Below, piece by piece: positions 4,210-58,493 of a stretch of DNA of 64,000 nucleotides. The stretch's first letter is position 1. Every line of letters begins with the position of its first letter. The notes beneath the pieces are model-generated. The model was not told the origin of the DNA, ran no database searches, and saw only the letters and a list, made by a program, of their open reading frames with translations. Origin of the DNA: Methanomicrobiales archaeon HGW-Methanomicrobiales-3 (GTDB lineage Archaea; Halobacteriota; Methanomicrobia; Methanomicrobiales; Methanospirillaceae); assembly GCA_002839605.1 (NCBI GenBank), contig PGYK01000001.1:186001-250000 (forward strand). Direction: 5' to 3'. Made by a program: the position numbers and the translations under genes.

Positions 4210-5298
<1,089 letters not shown>

Positions 5299-9789: not shown

Positions 9790-9980
9790 AGGAATTGAAG
9801 ACGCTCTCGGGGCTCCGCCCCGCCGCTGGGGCAACCCCGCTGAGCGATAACGACGTATTACCTGCATATCCAGATGTGCAGAATCTTTTCTCGTATAAAA
9901 ACCGGTAATTGAAGCCGCCGCGGGGCGCCCTCCGGGGCGGCGGCACATCTCCTCATACGGGGAGAGGGGTATCAGTCCCA
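9790..9980. repeat. GC-hairpin interspersed repeat, copy A
   Basis: This gap element holds a 5' hairpin (GGGGCTCCGCCCC), a block reading CCGCTGGGGCAACCCCGC, then GCGATAACGACGTATTACC, and a 3' module TTGAAGCCGCCGCGGGG with a GC hairpin (GCCGCCGCGGGG pairing near CCGGGGCGGCGGC). The same order of modules recurs at 56284-56482, partly at 56522-56640, and in reverse at 22185-22320. It has no credible coding frame. The rest of 9981-10115 shows nothing identifiable. Confidence 0.7.
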
Positions 9981-20047: not shown

Positions 20048-20467
20048 ATGTGTGACACCAACCCCATAAAACTCGGATTCGTTGTTGCGGAGTTCAACCG
20101 CGACATCACCTACATGATGGAGATCGAAGGCCGCGAACACGCCGCATTCCTTGGCGCGGAAGTGACCGACTGCATCTACGTGCCCGGCGCGTACGACATG
20201 CCGCTTGCCATCAAGAAGATGCTGACCGGCGGAAAAGTCGATGCCGTGGTCACCATCGGCTGCGTTATCGAGGGCAACACCCAGCACGACGAGATCGTGG
20301 TGCAGCACGCGGCCCGGAAGATCATCGACCTCTCCTTAGAGTTCGGCAAGCCGGTTACGCTCGGCATCTCCGGGCCCGGTATGACCCGTCTTGAAGCCAA
20401 CGAGCGGATCGATTACGCCAAACGTGCGGTTGAGTCCGCCATCAAGCTCGTCAAACGGTTGAAATGA
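20048..20467 (+). CDS. ribH: 6,7-dimethyl-8-ribityllumazine synthase RibH
   Basis: A 139-residue lumazine synthase, which condenses 5-amino-6-(ribitylamino)uracil with 3,4-dihydroxy-2-butanone 4-phosphate. Clear family blocks are VAEFNRDIT near residue 13, [15 protein letters not shown] at about 44-58, the phosphate-binding [14 protein letters not shown] with catalytic His, and [15 protein letters not shown]. Archaeal RibH often forms 60-mer capsids; oligomer state cannot be read here. Its stop overlaps the following aminotransferase start (ATGA). Confidence 0.93.
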
Positions 20468-21597
20468 AGCCTCTGTCGGAGAAGATCGCCGCTGTCACGG
20501 AGTCGGCGACGATTGCCATCTCCAACAAGGCAAAGAAGATGCAGCGGGAAGGCACCGATGTCATCAGCCTCTCGATAGGCGAGCCTGACTTTGCCACCCC
20601 GCAGCATATCACGGATGCCTGCATCGCGGCAATGCAACGGGGCGAGACGCATTACGCGCCGAGCAGCGGTATCCCCGAACTGACAACTGCCATCGCGGAG
20701 AAGATCGAGCGGGAGAACCATTTCCCCTGCACCCCCGGCCAGGTGATCGTTGCCTGCGGGGCGAAGAACTCGATCTATGAGGCGATGGAGGCGGTGCTGA
20801 ACCCGGGCGACGAGGCGATCCTTCTCACCCCGGCCTGGGTCAGCTACGAGCCCTGCATCCATATCGCCGGCGGGAAGACCGTGAAGCACGCGGTTGACCA
20901 GAAGACCTTCCAGCTCGACGACTCGCTGCTGGAGAAGGTGAACAGGAAGTCCAAGATGATCGTGGTCAACACGCCGTCGAACCCGTCCGGCGCGGTGCTT
21001 GACAAAAAGTCCCTGCAGCTCGTGGCCGATCTCTGCACCGACAACGACCTGTACTGCCTCTCGGACGAGATCTACGAGAAGCTGATCTACGGGAAAGAGC
21101 ACATCTCGCTCGCGTCCATCGGCGACATGGCGGAGCGGACGATCACCATCAACGGGTTCTCGAAGGCGTATGCCATGACCGGCTGGCGGCTCGGGTACGC
21201 GGTGGCCCCCCCGGCGATCATCAGGGAGATGTCCAAGGTGCAGCAGCACTCGATCAGCCAGGTGGCGACCTTTGCGATGTGGGGCGGGGTTGCGGCACTC
21301 ACGGGCGACCAGCAGTGCGTTGAGGCGATGCGGCAGGAGTTCGACGCTCGGCGCAAGTACATCATCCCCGCGCTGAACGCGATGGGCTACGAGACGGCGC
21401 CCGCGGACGGGGCGTTCTATGCCTTCGTGAAGGTTGCGGGCGACGATATGGACGTTGCCTCGCGCTGGCTTGACAAGGGCCACGTTGCCGCGACGCCGGG
21501 GAGTGCGTTCGATGCGCCGGGGTGGGTCCGGTTGTCGTACGCTACGTCGATGGAGCGGCTCGTGGAGGCGATGGAGAGGATTAGGGGAGTTGGGTGA
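20464..21597 (+). CDS. Class I aminotransferase, aspartate aminotransferase-like
   Basis: A 377-residue PLP enzyme of class I. It shows SIGEPDF near 38-43, the Asn/Pro block NTPSNPSG at about 169-176, [11 protein letters not shown] with the pyridine Asp, and the Schiff-base Lys234 in [16 protein letters not shown]. This is the aspartate / aromatic aminotransferase I-gamma branch, so aspartate and several other amino acids are possible substrates. Translation is coupled to ribH. Why two aminotransferases bracket the riboflavin genes is unclear; the grouping may simply be a housekeeping operon. Positions 21598-21724 hold a lower-GC gap leading to the accessory pocket. Confidence 0.88.
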
Positions 21598-22343: not shown

Positions 22344-22692
22344 TTTTCAATCAAAGTCCAATCGATCCGGATCGGTTTTTCGATCGCGATCACGATCGCG
22401 TTTGAAATCTCAAAATCAAACCCTGCCGGAAAATTTCCAATCAAAGTCCGCTGAAAAAATTTCAATCAGGGTGTGATTGCGAAATGTTAAGCTCATCCTC
22501 AGCAGCACCAAGACGGCCCCCACGACGACAACGCGGACGTGGCACCGGTTTTTCCATCAAAGGTCGCCTGAGAATTTTCAATCAAAGTCTGCTGAAAATT
22601 TTTCAATCACGATCCGGTTGAAAATTGAAAATCAAAGTTCGATCGATCCGGATCGGTTTTTCGATCGCGATCGTGATCGCGTTTGAAATTTT
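22344..22692. repeat. AT-rich repeat cluster with a 60-bp duplicated core
   Basis: The 60-base segment at 22349-22408 recurs at 22630-22689 with four differences. Both begin AATCAAAGT, contain CGATCCGGATCGG and CGATCGCGATC palindromes, and end GCGTTTGAAAT. Between and around them is a degenerate shorter unit close to TTTTCAATCAAAGTC-GCTGAAAA (near 22434, 22550, 22574 and 22597). A diverged single copy lies at 48049-48108. There is no convincing gene; the short open frames all end at the same repeated position, which is a property of the repeat. Confidence 0.75.
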
Positions 22693-22818
22693 CCGGGCAG
22701 GGTCCGGTTGAAACCGGGATTCGAAGGATAGGAACCAGGCTCCCCCTAAACCACCCCTCCCGGACCCCCGCATCCGGTTAAAACCCCCCGCTGTATCCCG
22801 ATTGTTGGGGACTTTGTC

Positions 22819-23005
22819 CACCTGTTATGGTGCTATTAGCGTTTTCCAAAATCTCCGGCGTGAGAAAAACCCATCCGGGCGAATTGCGGGCAGGAATCCG
22901 GGCTCATTGTATCGTTTTTCTCCGATTAAGGTACTTTTCCGGACCATGAAAAAAGGGGCCCGGAAAAAGTCTGTAATGCGGGCTCCGATTGCCAATCCGG
23001 TCCAG
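22819..23005. repeat. Long interspersed repeat, copy 1
   Basis: A 187-base segment that matches the reverse complement of about 58005-58195 over its whole length, with no length change and roughly four-fifths of bases shared. Conserved stretches include CCATCCGGGCGA, CATTGTATCGTTTTT and AAGGTACTTTTCCGGACC. Both copies keep one frame open (LRRE, PSGR, GRNPG, LYRF, KVLFRT), but differences fall on all codon positions and mostly change the residue. So a protein is unlikely. The intervening DNA at 23006-23113 is proline-codon-rich low-complexity sequence with nothing identifiable. Confidence 0.65.
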
Positions 23006-23113
23006 ATTTAAGAAGCAGGCTCCTGCCCCTCCCGACCCTTTTCTGGGTGTGATCTATCGTCGGAGAAATGGGGGTGGCAGCAGCCCCCCCTCCTTCGGAC
23101 ATCCCCCCAAGTC

Positions 23114-23351
23114 CCCCTCCCCCGCCGTATCAGAATCCGGCCTCGTATCGTGGCCTGTTACACGAGTTTTGCCTCACCTCCCCTTTTAACAGAGGCAATG
23201 ATTCGGAAAAACGCGGTAATTGTTCCGGAATAATTCAGGGTTTTACGACGGGAATTGGTGAGGCAATGTGTAGCAACGTTACAGCGGCATCCGGCCGGGC
23301 GAAGTCGGGAAGTGCAAAGCCCCGGGGTCCGGGAGGGGGGATTCCGGGGCC
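23114..23351. repeat. Long direct repeat, left copy
   Basis: A 238-base sequence repeated at 24772-25007 in the same orientation with about nine in ten bases identical. It starts CCCCTCCCCCGCCGTATCA and ends in a G-rich run before TTCCGGGGCC. The best-preserved part is AGAGGCAATGATTCG, GGTTTTACGACGGGAATTGG and TGTAGCAACGTTACAGC. The two copies bracket the ATPase gene at 23451. No reading frame is conserved between them. Confidence 0.8.
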
Positions 23352-23440
23352 GGAGGTCATGGGGTTGTCGGCCACCCCCTTTATGGCTGCCGGCATACTT
23401 ACTAACTGCCAGTGAAAACATTTATCGAATATTACTAACT

Positions 23441-23450
23441 ACTAATTAGT
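23441..23450 (+). promoter_or_regulatory. Perfect palindrome touching the ATPase start codon
   Basis: ACTAATTAGT is a perfect 10-base palindrome directly before ATG 23451, preceded by ATTACTAACT (23431-23440), a partial repeat. With an AT-rich TATA-like stretch at about 23420-23430 the message would be leaderless or nearly so, and a protein bound here would cover the start of transcription. Confidence 0.4.
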
Positions 23451-24719
23451 ATGATATCACGGGAGCTGCTGCGCCACATCGTGATCCAGCAGAAGGCACG
23501 GATTGAGAAACCCGGGGATTTCATCGAGCGGACCCTGTTTGGCAGGATCATGGCGGCCATGGATGACGACCGGATCCTGATCCTTTCCGGCATTCGGCGC
23601 TGCGGGAAATCCACACTCCTCCAGGCGATCAAAAATTCCCGGCCCGGTTGCTGCTATGCAAACTTCGAGGACGAACGTCTGCTCTCGTTCCGGGCAGAGG
23701 ACTTTTTTATGCTGGACGAGATCCTCCACGAGGTTTATGGGACATGCAGCACGTACTTCTTTGATGAGATCCAGAACGTGGAGAAGTTCGAGACCTTCGT
23801 GCGGCGTCTTCAGGATGATGGGAAAAAAGTCATTTTGACCGGCTCCAACGCGGCACTGCTCAGCCGGGAGTTCGGGACCCGGCTGACCGGACGGTACAAG
23901 CTCTTTGAAGTGTACCCGTTCTCCTTTCCCGAGTACCTCCTGTTCCGGAAGATCCGGCCTGCAGAGAATGCTCCGTACCTGACAGAAGAGAAAGCCGTCC
24001 TGGTCCGGGAATTCCGGCAGTACATCGGGAACGGGGGAATGCCGGAGTATCTAAAGAACAATGACCCGGATTATCTCCGGACCCTGTACGAGAACATCCT
24101 GTACCGGGACATCATCGCCCGGTTCTCCATCCGAAGGCAGCGGCTGGTCCGGGAGCTGGTCGGGATACTTGCTTCAACCATCACCCTGCCGTTCACGTAC
24201 AATTCATTGAAAAAAACCCTTGGGCTGACTAACGCGATCACGGTCAAGGAATACATCTCGTACCTCAGCGGGGCGTACCTCTACTTTGAGCTTGCCCGGT
24301 TCGATTATTCCGTGAAGAAGCAGCTCGGCGCTCCCCGCAAGATCTACTGCATCGACAACGCAATGAGTACTCTTGCCGGGGTTTCCATCACACCGGACAA
24401 GGGACGGCTTTTAGAAAATATCGTGTACATCGAACTCCGGAGGAGAGGTCAGGAGATCTTTTATTTTTCACAGGAGCGGGAATGTGATTTCATTCTCCGG
24501 GACGCAAGAAGGATCACTGCCGCACTCCAGGTGTGCTGGGAAGTCGGGCAGGAGAACCGGAAGCGGGAGATTGAGGGTCTTCTTGGGGCAATGGTGGAGT
24601 TCGATCTTGCAGACGGAACAATCCTTACGTTTGACCAGGAAGATGAGCTGCACGTGGAGGGGAAAAAAATCATCCTGCTGCCCGTCTGGAAGTGGCTTGT
24701 GACCGGGAATACTCCCTAA
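23451..24719 (+). CDS. AAA ATPase with DUF4143 C-terminal domain
   Basis: A 422-residue protein of the widespread AAA_14/DUF4143 group. Walker A is GIRRCGKST at residues 47-55, Walker B YFFDEIQN has D105 and E106, and the sensor-like LTGSNA follows at about 129-134. The C-terminal DUF4143 part begins near 200 and ends with a nuclease-like strand block (LENIVYIELRRRGQEIFYFSQERECDFI). Such proteins are common in variable parts of archaeal genomes, and their role is unknown. The gene has no same-strand partner and lies exactly between two 237-bp direct repeats. Its N-terminus has no signal peptide. Confidence 0.88.
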   Translation: MISRELLRHIVIQQKARIEKPGDFIERTLFGRIMAAMDDDRILILSGIRRCGKSTLLQAIKNSRPGCCYANFEDERLLSFRAEDFFMLDEILHEVYGTCSTYFFDEIQNVEKFETFVRRLQDDGKKVILTGSNAALLSREFGTRLTGRYKLFEVYPFSFPEYLLFRKIRPAENAPYLTEEKAVLVREFRQYIGNGGMPEYLKNNDPDYLRTLYENILYRDIIARFSIRRQRLVRELVGILASTITLPFTYNSLKKTLGLTNAITVKEYISYLSGAYLYFELARFDYSVKKQLGAPRKIYCIDNAMSTLAGVSITPDKGRLLENIVYIELRRRGQEIFYFSQERECDFILRDARRITAALQVCWEVGQENRKREIEGLLGAMVEFDLADGTILTFDQEDELHVEGKKIILLPVWKWLVTGNTP

Positions 24720-24771
24720 GTACCTCGCCCCCACGATCAGAACACTACTCCGTCGTATCACCCCTCCTTTA

Positions 24772-25007
24772 CCCCTCCCCCGCCGTATCAAAATCCGGCC
24801 GCGTATCGTGCCTCGTTACATGAGTTTTGCCTCACCCCCCATTCTGGCAGAGGCAATGATTCGAAAAAACGCGGTAATTGTTCCGGAACTGATCGGGGTT
24901 TTACGACGGGAATTGGTGAGGTAATGTGTAGCAACGTTACAGCGGCATCCGGCCGGGCGAGGCCGGGAAGTGCAAAGCCCTGCGGCCCGGGAGGGGGGTT
25001 CCGGGCC
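24772..25007. repeat. Long direct repeat, right copy
   Basis: The right-hand partner of 23114-23351: 236 bases, same orientation, starting CCCCTCCCCCGCCGTATCA and ending GGTTCCGGGCC. The 50 bases between the ATPase stop and this repeat (24720-24771) are low-complexity pyrimidine-rich sequence with nothing recognisable. The repeat stops 30 bases before the end of the convergent M23-like gene. Confidence 0.8.
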
Positions 25008-25037
25008 AAAAGAGCAGTGCCGGGAGTAAAAAGGTGG

Positions 25038-26264
25038 TCAGGGGAACCGGACGATCTCGTTATTGTCCGGCAGCATGGTGTGGCGGGGAACCGGCGCCTT
25101 CAAAAACTCAGCAAAGTCTCCCATCTCCGACCAGAGCTGGACCATGGTATATTCTGCCGAGACCTGCCGCAGTTCAGCCCCGGTCTGGTTGACGCTGCCG
25201 ATCGAGTCGAACGAGCGGTACACGTGGGGGTACCCCTCAGCGCCCAGGAACGATGGCGTATCGGTCACGACCTGGAAATGCAGGTGCGGAATGTCGGAGT
25301 TCCCGCTGTTCCCCATCAGGCCGATAACCTGCCCCTCCGTCACGGTATCGCCGGGCTTCACCCGGACCGAGCCGTTGACCATATGGGCATAACACGTGTA
25401 TTTCCTGTTCCCGATATCGACAATCACAAAGTTTCCGGCCGCCGTCGCAAGGGTTGCCGGCGGGGCTGAATAGATAGTCTCGATATCCGGCAGGCCGTCA
25501 AGCGCTGCAATCACGGTCCCGCCGGCCGCTGCATGAATCTCCTTGCCGAACCCGAAATAGTTCCGGGCAAGGGAGGCATCGCCCTTCGCGGGAGCTCCCG
25601 TCTTCTCGTCCAGCAGGATCCAGTCCTGGGCATAGCGCTGGGGAACCCGCGTCGTACCGTTCATCGTGATCTGGGCTGTGAAGTGGTGGGTGAAGGGGGA
25701 TGTCGTCTCCATGGCCATCCATCCCGGTCCGGACATCGGGGCCCCGATGACAACCGGCGCCAGATCCTTCTGCACCGCAACTTCGCCGCCGCTTACCGTT
25801 GTCAGGGGCAAGCCGGTGTCGGACTGGTTCAGGGTGACCCGGTGCACGAGCCGGTCCGGGACCGCATCCGGTGTTGTGGCAAACCAGATCGAGACACGGG
25901 GAGAGGGAACTTTTCCCGTGCCGGTCATCATCTCTTCAGGTGTCGGGGGCGGCACGGCAGCCGGGTGATAGAGCGCTCTCAGCACGTTGCCATCGGCAGT
26001 AAAGAGAGCCGTCCCGGTAGCAGGATCGAGAACCTCCACCCTCTCAACCCCCGGCATCTTTCCATCCGAAGGCGAAAATTCAAGCTCGTAGGCAAACTGC
26101 ACCCCGCTGGCGGCAGGGACGGGGATGGGTGCGAACGGGACGGTCATGGCAAGGACCGGGGAGGCAGGAGCCGGGATGGTTTCATGGGCCGGCTGGGTAC
26201 AGCCGGCGATCACGAGAACTGCGATGACAAGCACTGGAATCAGGAACCGGAAAATTACAGACAT
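25038..26264 (-). CDS. M23-family (LytM-like) lipoprotein, possibly inactive
   Basis: A 408-residue exported lipoprotein with lipobox IAGC at Cys22. The C-terminal part is the M23/LytM fold: PGDTVTEGQVIGLMGNSGNSDIPHLHFQV, with H327 and H329. The first ligand pair, normally HxxxD, reads RYAQD (R210, D214), so the first zinc His is not in its usual place. Peptidoglycan is absent from methanogens of this order, so the target is probably a protein or the domain binds rather than cuts. The middle region (40-200) has no recognised domain. It is convergent with the ATPase gene. Confidence 0.78.
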   Translation of the reverse strand: MSVIFRFLIPVLVIAVLVIAGCTQPAHETIPAPASPVLAMTVPFAPIPVPAASGVQFAYELEFSPSDGKMPGVERVEVLDPATGTALFTADGNVLRALYHPAAVPPPTPEEMMTGTGKVPSPRVSIWFATTPDAVPDRLVHRVTLNQSDTGLPLTTVSGGEVAVQKDLAPVVIGAPMSGPGWMAMETTSPFTHHFTAQITMNGTTRVPQRYAQDWILLDEKTGAPAKGDASLARNYFGFGKEIHAAAGGTVIAALDGLPDIETIYSAPPATLATAAGNFVIVDIGNRKYTCYAHMVNGSVRVKPGDTVTEGQVIGLMGNSGNSDIPHLHFQVVTDTPSFLGAEGYPHVYRSFDSIGSVNQTGAELRQVSAEYTMVQLWSEMGDFAEFLKAPVPRHTMLPDNNEIVRFP

Positions 26265-27252: not shown

Positions 27253-27603
27253 TTATTCGGAATCCGGGGAGAAGAGTTCTGATACCAGGTTTTGGATCTC
27301 CCGCATTTTTGCGGCATTAACGATACCAATGGTATCGCAAATGAGATCTTTTTCAAGAGCATAGATCCCGTCAGCCTGCACAAAACTGGAATGATCCAGA
27401 GATCCGGTACTGAGATCGGCGTTCGTCAGGCCGACTGCCATCATCTTTGGTTTCCGGGACGTGATCTTCATGACGATGACGTCCCGGGAGATCCGGTTGT
27501 ACCGCGAATTGCTGACAACAAGAGCGGGGCGTACCTTGGACTGGCTCTGGTTGGAATACGAAAAATCCACAAGGATGATGGAGCCCTGTGCCGGTTCAGT
27601 CAT
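27253..27603 (-). CDS. MazF/PemK-type mRNA-interferase toxin
   Basis: A 116-residue MazF/PemK-like protein. Family features are the N-terminal GSIILVDFSYSNQSQSKVRPALVVSNSRYNR (the beta-strand, basic loop and RPALVVS block) and later VIVMKITS, and SFVQADGIYALEKDLI. Such toxins cut single-stranded mRNA. The ATG at 27603 overlaps the antitoxin stop by eight bases. An upstream in-frame start at 27639 would run into the antitoxin gene and is rejected. Lower GC than neighbours. Confidence 0.85.
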   Translation of the reverse strand: MTEPAQGSIILVDFSYSNQSQSKVRPALVVSNSRYNRISRDVIVMKITSRKPKMMAVGLTNADLSTGSLDHSSFVQADGIYALEKDLICDTIGIVNAAKMREIQNLVSELFSPDSE

Positions 27604-27811
27604 GCGCCAGCCTTCGGTGTGCGTGCTCCTTCCACACATCGTCCGGGTTATCGTAATCGATCTCGATCCTGGCTTTCCGGAAGATGATCCTGTCCTGATC
27701 CGAGGTGATCGTCAGGTAATCCCCGTCATTGATACCGAGATCGGACCGGATCTTCTTTGGGAGGGTGATGAGTCCCTTGGACGATACCTTGACCAGTGTC
27801 GTGTCAGGCAT
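27596..27811 (-). CDS. AbrB/MazE-type antitoxin
   Basis: A 71-residue protein with an N-terminal SpoVT/AbrB swapped-hairpin DNA-binding domain: VKVSSKGLITLPKKIRSDLGINDGDYLTITSDQDRIIFRK (about 8-47). The C-terminal DNPDDVWKEHAHRRL is the toxin-binding tail. As with other MazE-like antitoxins it should repress its own operon. It lies upstream of, and overlaps, the MazF-like gene. Upstream, 27812-28014 is AT-rich and then featureless. Confidence 0.87.
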   Translation of the reverse strand: MPDTTLVKVSSKGLITLPKKIRSDLGINDGDYLTITSDQDRIIFRKARIEIDYDNPDDVWKEHAHRRLAHD

Positions 27812-28014: not shown

Positions 28015-28866
28015 TTACGGTTGAGTCTTCCCCCACCGGATATGCGCAAACGTCGAGTCCCCGGAAATAACAACCTCATCGCCCCGGGATTGGATCAGCG
28101 GGCTCACGTAGTCATCGACAATCCGCACCTGTTCACTGGTTGTTGCCCCGAATCGTCTCCGGAAGAATGCGAGCATCTCCTCCCGGCTCCCGAACCGGTA
28201 CTCCTTTGAGAGCGGCAGCATCGTCACATCAGGATAGATCCCCATCTGGTACAGCACGCCAAAGAGGCAGTCCGCCTTGGGCCCGGAATAATAGGGTGTC
28301 TTGCGAAGCGGGGTCCAGAGATCGGCATACATCTTCTCCCAGAATGGCATATCCACGAACCAGAAGAGGTGGACGGAGCCCGAACAGACGGCATCCATCT
28401 TGGCAAGGGCCGAACGGATGTCGTGCATGGTTAAGGAGAGCGATGCGATCACGATATCGTACGGTGGTGAGAGGTCGCGGGCCGGATCAATCTCCTCCCA
28501 GGTCTTCTGCACGGAGGTGATGTTCCGGATCCCGTCCCGGTCCGCATGCCGTTTCAGCACCTCCACCATACCGGCCCCGGGCTCAACCGCGGTCACTTCC
28601 CGGACGAGCGGGGCAAGCGGCAGGGCGAGCACCCCGGGGCCGGCCCCGATGTCCAGCACCCGGGATCCTTTTGTGAGCGGGAGCGCCGCGATGGTCCGCT
28701 GCACCCGGTCATCGTACCCGCTCCGGGCGTTTGCATCATAGCGCTCCGCATTCTCTTTTTTGTCCCAGTTATGCGAGGTGTCGTCATGCGTCCGTGTCGA
28801 CTCCTGCAGCCGCTGCAGCTCTTTCCAGATCTCGTTCCAGTCAGGATCGCAGGGGGCCGGGCTCAT
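28015..28866 (-). CDS. SAM-dependent methyltransferase
   Basis: A 283-residue class I methyltransferase. Motif I is VLDIGAGPGVLALPLAP at about residues 69-85, motif II VTAVEPGAGMVEVLKRHA, and the post-I region is PPYDIVIASLSLTMHDI with HLFWFVD after it. The N-terminal 60 residues (DWNEIWKELQRLQE, NWDKKENAERYD) are typical of a family in methanogens with unknown substrates, sometimes found near corrinoid or metal-uptake genes. Here it stands alone, 47 bases upstream of the ABC permease's end on the same strand. Confidence 0.82.
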   Translation of the reverse strand: MSPAPCDPDWNEIWKELQRLQESTRTHDDTSHNWDKKENAERYDANARSGYDDRVQRTIAALPLTKGSRVLDIGAGPGVLALPLAPLVREVTAVEPGAGMVEVLKRHADRDGIRNITSVQKTWEEIDPARDLSPPYDIVIASLSLTMHDIRSALAKMDAVCSGSVHLFWFVDMPFWEKMYADLWTPLRKTPYYSGPKADCLFGVLYQMGIYPDVTMLPLSKEYRFGSREEMLAFFRRRFGATTSEQVRIVDDYVSPLIQSRGDEVVISGDSTFAHIRWGKTQP

Positions 28867-48034: not shown

Positions 48035-48108
48035 GGTTCGCTGAAAATTTTCCAATCAGGATTCGATCCGGAGCAATTTTTCATTCTCGAAACGGATCGC
48101 GTTTGAAA
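48035..48108. repeat. AT-rich repeat, diverged copy
   Basis: CGCTGAAAATTTTCCAATCAG is followed by ATTCGATCCGGA, CAATTTTTC and CGGATCGCGTTTGAAA, the same order as the 60-base repeat at 22349 and 22630. It lies just after the TMEM175-like gene and differs at about a third of positions. The rest of the gap to 48195 shows nothing further. Confidence 0.55.
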
Positions 48109-48195
48109 GGCGAAATCAGGAACCCGATCAATCCGGCCCGCTATTCCCATTGCTACCCGAATGCACAGTCGCAAAAAAAAGAGAGTACGATCTTT

Positions 48196-56283: not shown

Positions 56284-56482
56284 CCGACAACGCTTTCGGG
56301 GGTTTCACCCCCGCCGCTGTGGCGCCCCCGCTTCGCGATGACGACGTATTACCTTTGTCGTGAACCGTCGGGTCCTGTATTACGTATGATGATTTGGTAG
56401 TTGAAGCCGCCGCGGGAGCGCCCCCGCGGGGGCGGCGGCAGTTATCGTTAGGGGGTATGGGGGCATCAGCCCCCATCATCTG
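56284..56482. repeat. GC-hairpin interspersed repeat, copy B
   Basis: The fullest copy: CGACAACGCTTTCGGGGG, hairpin TTTCACCCC, CCGCCGCTGTGGCGCCCCC, GCTTCGCGATGACGACGTATTACC, then TTGAAGCCGCCGCGGGAG and a long GC hairpin (GCCGCCGCGGG to CGGGGGCGGCGGC), ending in GGGGGTATGGGGGCATCAG. It matches copy A (9790-9980) in order and spacing. Confidence 0.75.
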
Positions 56483-56521: not shown

Positions 56522-56640
56522 GGCGACACTCTTTGGGGGTTTCAGCCCTGCTGCTGTGACCTCCCCGCTACGCGACAATGACGTATTCCCTGCACCTGAT
56601 TTTGTGACCCCCGCACTGCGCCCCGCCCTCCATCGGACTG
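56522..56640. repeat. GC-hairpin interspersed repeat, copy C (partial)
   Basis: A shorter copy directly beside copy B and in the same orientation: GGCGACACTCTTTGGGGG, TTTCAGCCCTGCTGCTGTG, CTACGCGACAATGACGTATTCCC. The 3' GC hairpin module is missing. 56641-56695 shows nothing else. Confidence 0.6.
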
Positions 56641-57457: not shown

Positions 57458-57988
57458 ATGACCCGGGGGCGCCAGCCGCTCATCGCGCTGCGCGAAGCCG
57501 GGGAGATCGCAAGGAAGCGGGGCGAGGTCCGGCACTTTGCGCATGAGCCGGGCATGATCTGCAACTTCGTGATCTACTGCACGGGCCTGACCGCCCATGT
57601 CCGGATCAAACGGGTCAGCCGGCTCCGCTGTCCCGTTGCGGTGATCGAGCGGGAGGCAGCCGATGCCTTAACAACGCTCCGGGCCATTGCGCCCGGGCCC
57701 GGGATCTCCCGCGAACTCTGGGTGTACCTGCCCCGCGGGTCGTTCCGGTTCTTCCGGGTTGAGGAGACCGGGCTCGTTGCGCTCGACCGCGACGGGTCGG
57801 TGATCCACCAGCAGCCAAAACCGGTCGCGGGTGCCGGGCTGCCTGCCCCGGCCCGGCCTGCGACAATGGACGGCCGGCCGCCGGCCCCTGCAACCCCGGC
57901 CGGGCAGGTATCTCCTCCCCCGGACCAGGCATCCCCCACCGGGGTCTCCGTCGGAGAGGATCTCCCGGAAAAGGGTCGGGGCGCCTGA
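57458..57988 (+). CDS. Conserved-looking protein of unknown function
   Basis: A 176-residue protein I do not recognise. The first 110 residues look globular: EAGEIARKRGEVRHFAHEPGMICNFVIYCTGLTAHVRIKRVSRLRCPVAVIEREAADAL, with a strand-helix character that recalls small nuclease-like domains, then YLPRGSFRFFRVEETGLV. The last 55 residues are Pro/Ala-rich and disordered. GC-rich third positions favour a real gene. Its 3' end borders the long repeat at 58005. No ribosome-binding site is obvious. Confidence 0.6.
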   Translation: MTRGRQPLIALREAGEIARKRGEVRHFAHEPGMICNFVIYCTGLTAHVRIKRVSRLRCPVAVIEREAADALTTLRAIAPGPGISRELWVYLPRGSFRFFRVEETGLVALDRDGSVIHQQPKPVAGAGLPAPARPATMDGRPPAPATPAGQVSPPPDQASPTGVSVGEDLPEKGRGA

Positions 57989-58004
57989 GATCCGACCCTC
58001 CAAA

Positions 58005-58195
58005 ATGAGCCCGGATCAGCAATCGGAGCCAGAATTTGGGACTTTATCCGGGCCCCTTTTTCCAGGGTCCGGAAAAGTACCTTATTCAGGCAAAAACGAT
58101 ACAATGGGCCCGGATTTCTGCCCGTAAATCGCCCGGATGGTTTTTCCTCCCGCCGGAGACTGTAAAAAACGCTAATAGAATCAATTAGGTGCAGG
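58005..58195. repeat. Long interspersed repeat, copy 2 (reverse)
   Basis: The reverse complement of this segment matches 22819-23005 over the whole length. Shared stretches include CCATCCGGGCGA, TTGTATCGTTTTT, AAGGTACTTTTCCGGACC and GGGGCCCGG. After it, 58196-58493 is a gap with no gene that I can support; it ends in two A-rich runs (58411-58420 and 58476-58484). Confidence 0.65.
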
Positions 58196-58493
58196 AAGTG
58201 CCCCAAAACCGTGCTGCTGGTGGGGGTTTTGGCCGGTGATCGGGGGTCCGGGGGGCGGAAAAGATCCCGGGTTGCATGAGAAGATGGTCAGATCCGGCCC
58301 GGTCCTGAAATCCTGTGGTTGCCGGCGCCGTGTCTGAAGGAACAGCACGGGTCCGGCATCCGGTAATCGCGTGCGTCAGGTTCATGAGCCTGCGATTCAA
58401 CTATCGCGTCAGTAAAAAAAAAGAGCCGATACCGATATGATTCGTTACGATCTCCCGTCGCGGCGGGACCGGCAGCAAAAAAAAGAGAGATCC

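Follow-up and report, generated by a model that had tools for sequence, protein, structure and literature searches.

Within the window (the whole stretch analysed, 64,000 nucleotides of Methanomicrobiales archaeon HGW-Methanomicrobiales-3), a lone AAA/DUF4143 ATPase gene lies between two copies of a dispersed repeat, REP1. Bracketing by direct repeats is a property of the ATPase family, to which REP1 is not tied, and the pattern suggests that members of this family enter genomes with a duplication of the DNA at the landing site. The best reading is that the repeat marks the target and not the element's own end. That the ATPase of the window arrived as a small unit whose insertion duplicated a long piece of the target, which at this locus was a REP1 copy, we consider an evenly balanced proposition. 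If DUF4143 ATPases insert with long target duplication, their spread would have a testable route needing no transposase, and the duplicated ends would be a genome-wide marker of recent insertions of single-gene defence candidates.

The direct repeat and the ATPase gene

Self-comparison of the window gave two repeat copies on the same strand, W1 (23114..23348, +) and W2 (24772..25005, +), which are spaced 1658 bp apart and align over 235 bp with 89.8% identity (E 9e-87). In a global alignment, 215 of the 237 columns are identical, and mismatches and single-base gaps are scattered among them; because of these gaps, no reading frame is conserved across the copies. The repeat is confirmed as real and chance is ruled out. 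These measurements agree with the original prediction, which described about nine in ten bases common to both copies, the same orientation and no conserved reading frame. Its gap of 52 bases between the ATPase and W2 was also recovered, while the 5' gap, given there as 99 bases, measured 102 bp. A solo copy of another repeat, REP2, was found by repeat comparison to adjoin W1 (22798..23011, −). Further to the left of W1, a 60-bp repeat occurs at 22349-22408 and 22630-22689 (93%), with a diverged third copy far off at 48050-48109. Another long direct repeat of the window, of about 970 bp and 69% identity, pairs 1791-2756 with 4330-5295.

The bracketed ORF (23451..24719, +) carries the domains AAA_14 (E 2e-33) and DUF4143 (E 6e-18) in the family scan. 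The PADLOC model PDC-S01 matches it over 396 residues (E 5.4e-109, model positions 9-408 of 412). In PADLOC, PDC-S01 is a predicted single-gene phage defence system, and this likeness makes the ATPase a candidate single-gene anti-phage defence gene; the PDC-S01 prediction is silent on mobility. Among solved structures, no sequence relative of the ATPase was found. DUF4143 ATPases occurred in 79 of the 106 genomes of the class sample. They are widespread and variable in these archaea. A full-text search by domain name, with subscription journals mostly outside its scope, gave one paper that names the domain a single time and found no description of DUF4143 ATPases inserting with a long target duplication.

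Directly 5' of the start codon lies an A+T-rich stretch that reads like a promoter or operator (23399..23450, +). The same stretch, ACTAAnTnCCAnTGA...ACTAATTAGT-ATG, also precedes the ATPase in orthologs that are 65-74% identical. All members of the closest ortholog group have it, about 50 bp long and immediately upstream of the ATG. What the repeats enclose would therefore be a unit of promoter plus gene, about 1.4 kb. This conserved stretch could suggest that the repeats are control DNA of the ATPase (operators, terminators or insulators), both kept by selection. However, neither repeat includes the conserved stretch, and different orthologs have repeats of unrelated sequence, which makes this explanation very improbable. 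No transposase or integrase was recognised among the ORFs near the ATPase, only part of which were family-scanned; the 64-kb window has no tRNA gene, and no terminal inverted repeats at the ATPase unit stood out in the repeat comparisons.

Bracketing of ATPases across the family

A gene was scored as bracketed, at loci with enough flank only, if copies of a direct repeat of 70 bp or more lay within 700 bp to its left and to its right. The controls were the remaining ORFs of 0.9-1.7 kb at these loci. In Methanoregula, 13 of 47 ATPases (distant ones of the genus as well as close orthologs) were bracketed, versus 2 of 175 control ORFs (odds ratio 33, Fisher p 3e-8). The two bracketed controls are a DDE transposase and, by the look of its sequence, a HEPN/nucleotidyltransferase-type fusion. 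Outside Methanoregula, 40 loci were added from genomes of the order that consist of a single contig or are nearly complete. Here 3/40 ATPases were bracketed versus 1/50 controls, a small excess that is not significant alone. All loci pooled gave 16/87 versus 3/225 (p 2e-7), and these p-values are optimistic (too small) because the loci are related by descent. The bracketed ATPases outside the window come mostly from draft genomes.

The bracketing repeats measure 70-330 bp, are mostly spaced 1.55-1.9 kb apart, and their copies differ by 3-23%. Several of the 65-74% identical orthologs are bracketed at nearly the same spacing as in the window. The repeat is 156 bp at 91% with a spacing of 1698 in G057, 256-261 bp at 77% with a spacing of 1693 in G042, 325 bp at 91% with a spacing of 1697 in G062, and 96 bp at 89% with a spacing of 1666 in G060. 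This bracketing of orthologs in other genomes supports the original view of the ATPase as an inserted unit. With the exception of one pair (L176/L179), the repeats are unrelated between loci, which favours many separate events. Among the orthologs, the G042 and G062 repeats are related to each other, that of G062 being weakly REP2-like, and the G057 repeat is another sequence that is also weakly REP2-like.

At several loci the repeat is a piece of a neighbour gene, the names of which were read off the translated sequence and not taken from family scans. The piece belongs to a thiC-like gene at L205, a permease-like gene at L226, a flavodoxin-like reductase gene at L225 (209 bp at 97%) and a gene of no assigned kind at L224. 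It is the start of an SbcD/Mre11-like gene at L215 and the end of a histidine kinase gene at L183. At L205, L225 and L226, and by sequence reading also at L183, the intact neighbour gene stands beside the ATPase, and a remnant of the gene end stands on the far side. If repeat and ATPase had been duplicated in tandem and the second ATPase then lost, the same final layout of intact gene and remnant would result. No two-copy tandem ATPase locus was noticed among the loci examined, and there are single-copy sites entirely without an ATPase; we regard this history as quite improbable.

REP1, a dispersed repeat family

W1 and W2 belong to a dispersed non-coding family, REP1, with a core of about 160 bp (about 23126-23290 in W1 and 24784-24948 in W2). 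The assembly of the host, a methane-producing, Methanoregula-like archaeon (18 contigs, 2.59 Mb), has at least nine copies, i.e. seven or more beyond W1 and W2, and W1 and W2 are each other's closest copies among REP1. The family occurs in many Methanoregula genomes and one sister genus, and was absent from all other genomes of the order sample at the sensitivity used. Between unrelated sites the similarity has sharp limits. Counted from where a 150-base core starts, these lie about 8-19 bases upstream and 151-155 bases downstream; in the longer form, as in the window, the downstream limit is near +215. The limits of W1 and W2 are roughly these natural ends of REP1. REP1 matched no Rfam family and nothing in the phage and plasmid collections. 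None of four solo copies examined had a clean empty site, and their flanks are rich in other repeats. Stretches like a short G+C-rich dispersed repeat of the window (9809-9863, 56300-56354, 56537-56591) adjoin a solo REP1 and recur in other Methanoregula genomes.

In about a dozen places, 2-4 REP1 copies are clustered on one strand, usually separated by other genes, and such clusters occur without any ATPase. The strongest rival for the window itself is that REP1 is mobile or duplicates itself locally. W1 and W2 would then be one pair among many of this kind at a hot spot, both copies on the same strand, and the ATPase would lie between them by accident. The nine or more genome copies, the clusters, the sharp element ends between unrelated sites and the common strand of all REP1 copies at the syntenic locus in ten relatives are in favour of this explanation. 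It does not account, however, for the unrelated repeats that bracket ATPases at other loci, and do so much more frequently than they bracket other genes, and we consider it a serious but doubtful contender.

The positions of W1 and W2 would also suit a stricter form of the original idea, in which REP1 copies are the dedicated ends of a non-autonomous element with the ATPase as cargo. When the neighbourhoods of about 55 REP1 copies were inspected, an adjacent ATPase was present at the window pair alone, and none of the other ATPases examined lies between REP1 copies; dedicated ends are scarcely credible. Of the mobile cassette proposed originally, one half stands: the ATPase behaves as an inserted unit between long direct repeats without a transposase. 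The other half, the repeat as a shared handle on ATPase movement, is not supported, as the other REP1 copies examined are without ATPases and other bracketed ATPases carry unrelated repeats. Searching the genome and relatives with the repeat did yield further copies, but among those examined none near DUF4143 genes. REP1 thus occurs at sites that have no connection to ATPase genes, which had been named as a ground for rejection; the ATPase bracketing stands nonetheless.

REP1 holds a conserved imperfect palindrome. Its consensus fold is stronger than in column shuffles, and its paired cells outnumber those in the shuffles. A strand-specific RNA was considered and set aside: the two strands differ little in how well they fold, and by our own tally G-U does not exceed A-C once the pairs chosen for G-U are left out. 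The folding data do not tell an RNA from a DNA palindrome. The same-strand clusters also prompted comparison with attC sites of integrons, which was dropped. Many copies are single, no neighbouring integrase was noticed, and the shared strand at the window locus is due to synteny.

The site in relatives

A syntenic stretch was found in ten relatives. The aminotransferase gene on the left (20464..21597, +; family scan), the gene labelled methyltransferase from its sequence on the right (28015..28866, −), or both, anchored it as far as the stretch compared extends, and these two genes delimit a variable region. The ATPase was at this site in none of the ten, and REP1 was there in all ten, with one to three copies, all on the same strand. 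Orthologs of the ATPase occupy other genomic places in G035 and G061.

G069 and G071 have one REP1 beside the M23 peptidase gene that adjoins W2 in the window (25038..26264, −; family scan and locus comparison), and no ATPase. Their alignments run from REP1 into the M23 gene (window 24741-25265 and 24750-25379). The original prediction had called for relatives with a single copy at an empty site; these two have the single copy without the ATPase, next to a left flank that is not conserved. The left side of the locus is variable, and none of the sites was an exact empty one with conservation in both flanks. Because REP1 and its M23 junction are common to G069 and G071, W2 is probably the older copy, and W1 probably came with, or because of, the ATPase.

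The region also holds MazF-like and AbrB-like genes, named from sequence (27253..27811, −). By locus comparison, such a pair lies between direct REP1 copies that are 92-95% identical in G052 (L043:5163-6243) and G066 (L044:5736-7501), at the locus syntenic with that of the window ATPase. REP1 may thus serve different kinds of cargo as a landing site.

Possible route of insertion and known systems

We propose that the unit of promoter and ATPase gene would have been inserted beside a resident REP1 (W2), leaving a second REP1 (W1) on the opposite side. The ATPase family would do likewise at many sites, and the duplicated sequence would be whatever sits at the landing site. A small circular or tandem DNA form could carry the ATPase together with a stretch R homologous to the target, R perhaps having been captured from the ATPase's last site. 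Single-crossover homologous recombination at R, the step we think most likely, would then give R-ATPase-R. Both the circular form and the route of recombination are inferred, as is the direction in which the event ran. No circle or excision product was seen. Such a form and crossover would account for the long repeats, for copies that already differ by 3-23%, for unrelated repeats at different loci, and for repeat ends that are REP1 ends in the window. The rough agreement of the W1 and W2 limits with the REP1 ends is compatible with recombination at REP1 and also with two separate REP1 copies. If a staggered cut were filled in, the copies would be identical at first; this may apply to old insertions.

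The closest known behaviour is that of restriction-modification genes. According to a review (PMC3874152, summarising Nobusato et al. 2000, Gene 259:99, and Furuta et al. 2010, NAR 38:2428), these genes insert with long, variable target duplications in the order of 100 bp and with no linked transposase. By analogy with that account, the ATPases are alike in being a defence-type gene with no linked transposase recognised and with variable direct duplications of about 100 bp; direct duplications of 70-330 bp stand on both sides of the gene in 16 of the 87 ATPase loci. They differ from the insertions described there in being archaeal and in consisting of a single AAA/DUF4143 gene. Their duplications of 70-330 bp differ by 3-23%, and the duplicated flanks are often a neighbour-gene end or a dispersed repeat. 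Integrated archaeal proviruses and plasmids have direct-repeat attachment sites in gene ends (PMC4158269), and they are similar in that the end of a gene recurs beyond the insert. In contrast to them, the ATPase insert is one gene with no integrase seen, the window has no tRNA gene, and the repeats are long and imperfect.

The p141 gene and a second repeat

REP1 normally lies just 3' of an uncharacterised gene of about 141 aa, "p141", in many cases on the same strand. By our own tally, it was downstream in 24 of 29 closer p141 relatives (L081-L109), down to about 43% protein identity. Pfam, NCBIfam and PHROGs gave weak single-member matches at most, and no p141 was found in viral contigs. The REP1/p141 module is a separate finding, which accounts for the nature of the repeat and not for the bracketing of ATPases.

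The predicted structure of p141 (pLDDT 80) resembles Hjc-type Holliday junction resolvases of the PD-(D/E)xK kind. The best-matching chain was Hjc 1gef, at a middling Z of 8.4 over 101 residues; other Hjc chains gave Z 7.8-6.9, and Foldseek E-values for Hjc were about 0.04 or worse. In the columns of a 31-sequence p141 alignment, the third strand has no invariant E-x-K, the usual motif of the active site. The Hjc family PF01870 had no match in 21 genomes of the genus, and the controls M. jannaschii, H. volcanii and S. acidocaldarius were all matched.

Bacterial REP elements with RAYT proteins (PMC2817692) are comparable to REP1 and p141 in being a palindromic dispersed repeat family with a cognate protein gene and many solo copies. 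However, REP1 is about 160 bp and of low copy number, and the p141 model is Hjc-like and not of the IS200-type transposase fold. A broader, speculative proposal would see in the DUF4143 ATPase genes of archaea mobile units reduced to a single gene. Their forms of about 1.6 kb would hold a captured stretch of the last site and recombine at any homologous copy, with dispersed repeats such as REP1 as landing pads. The REP1/p141 modules would represent, in archaea, a new family that pairs a repeat with a protein in the manner of REP/RAYT. We regard this proposal as unlikely when taken as a whole.

The pairing of p141 with a repeat has at least two subfamilies, REP1 and REP2, each with solo copies elsewhere. 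In the window, sequence comparison identified a divergent p141 paralog (57458..57988, +), and repeat comparison placed a REP2 copy directly 3' of it (57994..58213, +). REP2 stands to this paralog as REP1 does to p141 in the window, G066, G045 and G037. Pairs of a p141-type gene and its cognate downstream repeat were also seen at L065:5466-6148, L066:5438-6121 and other loci.
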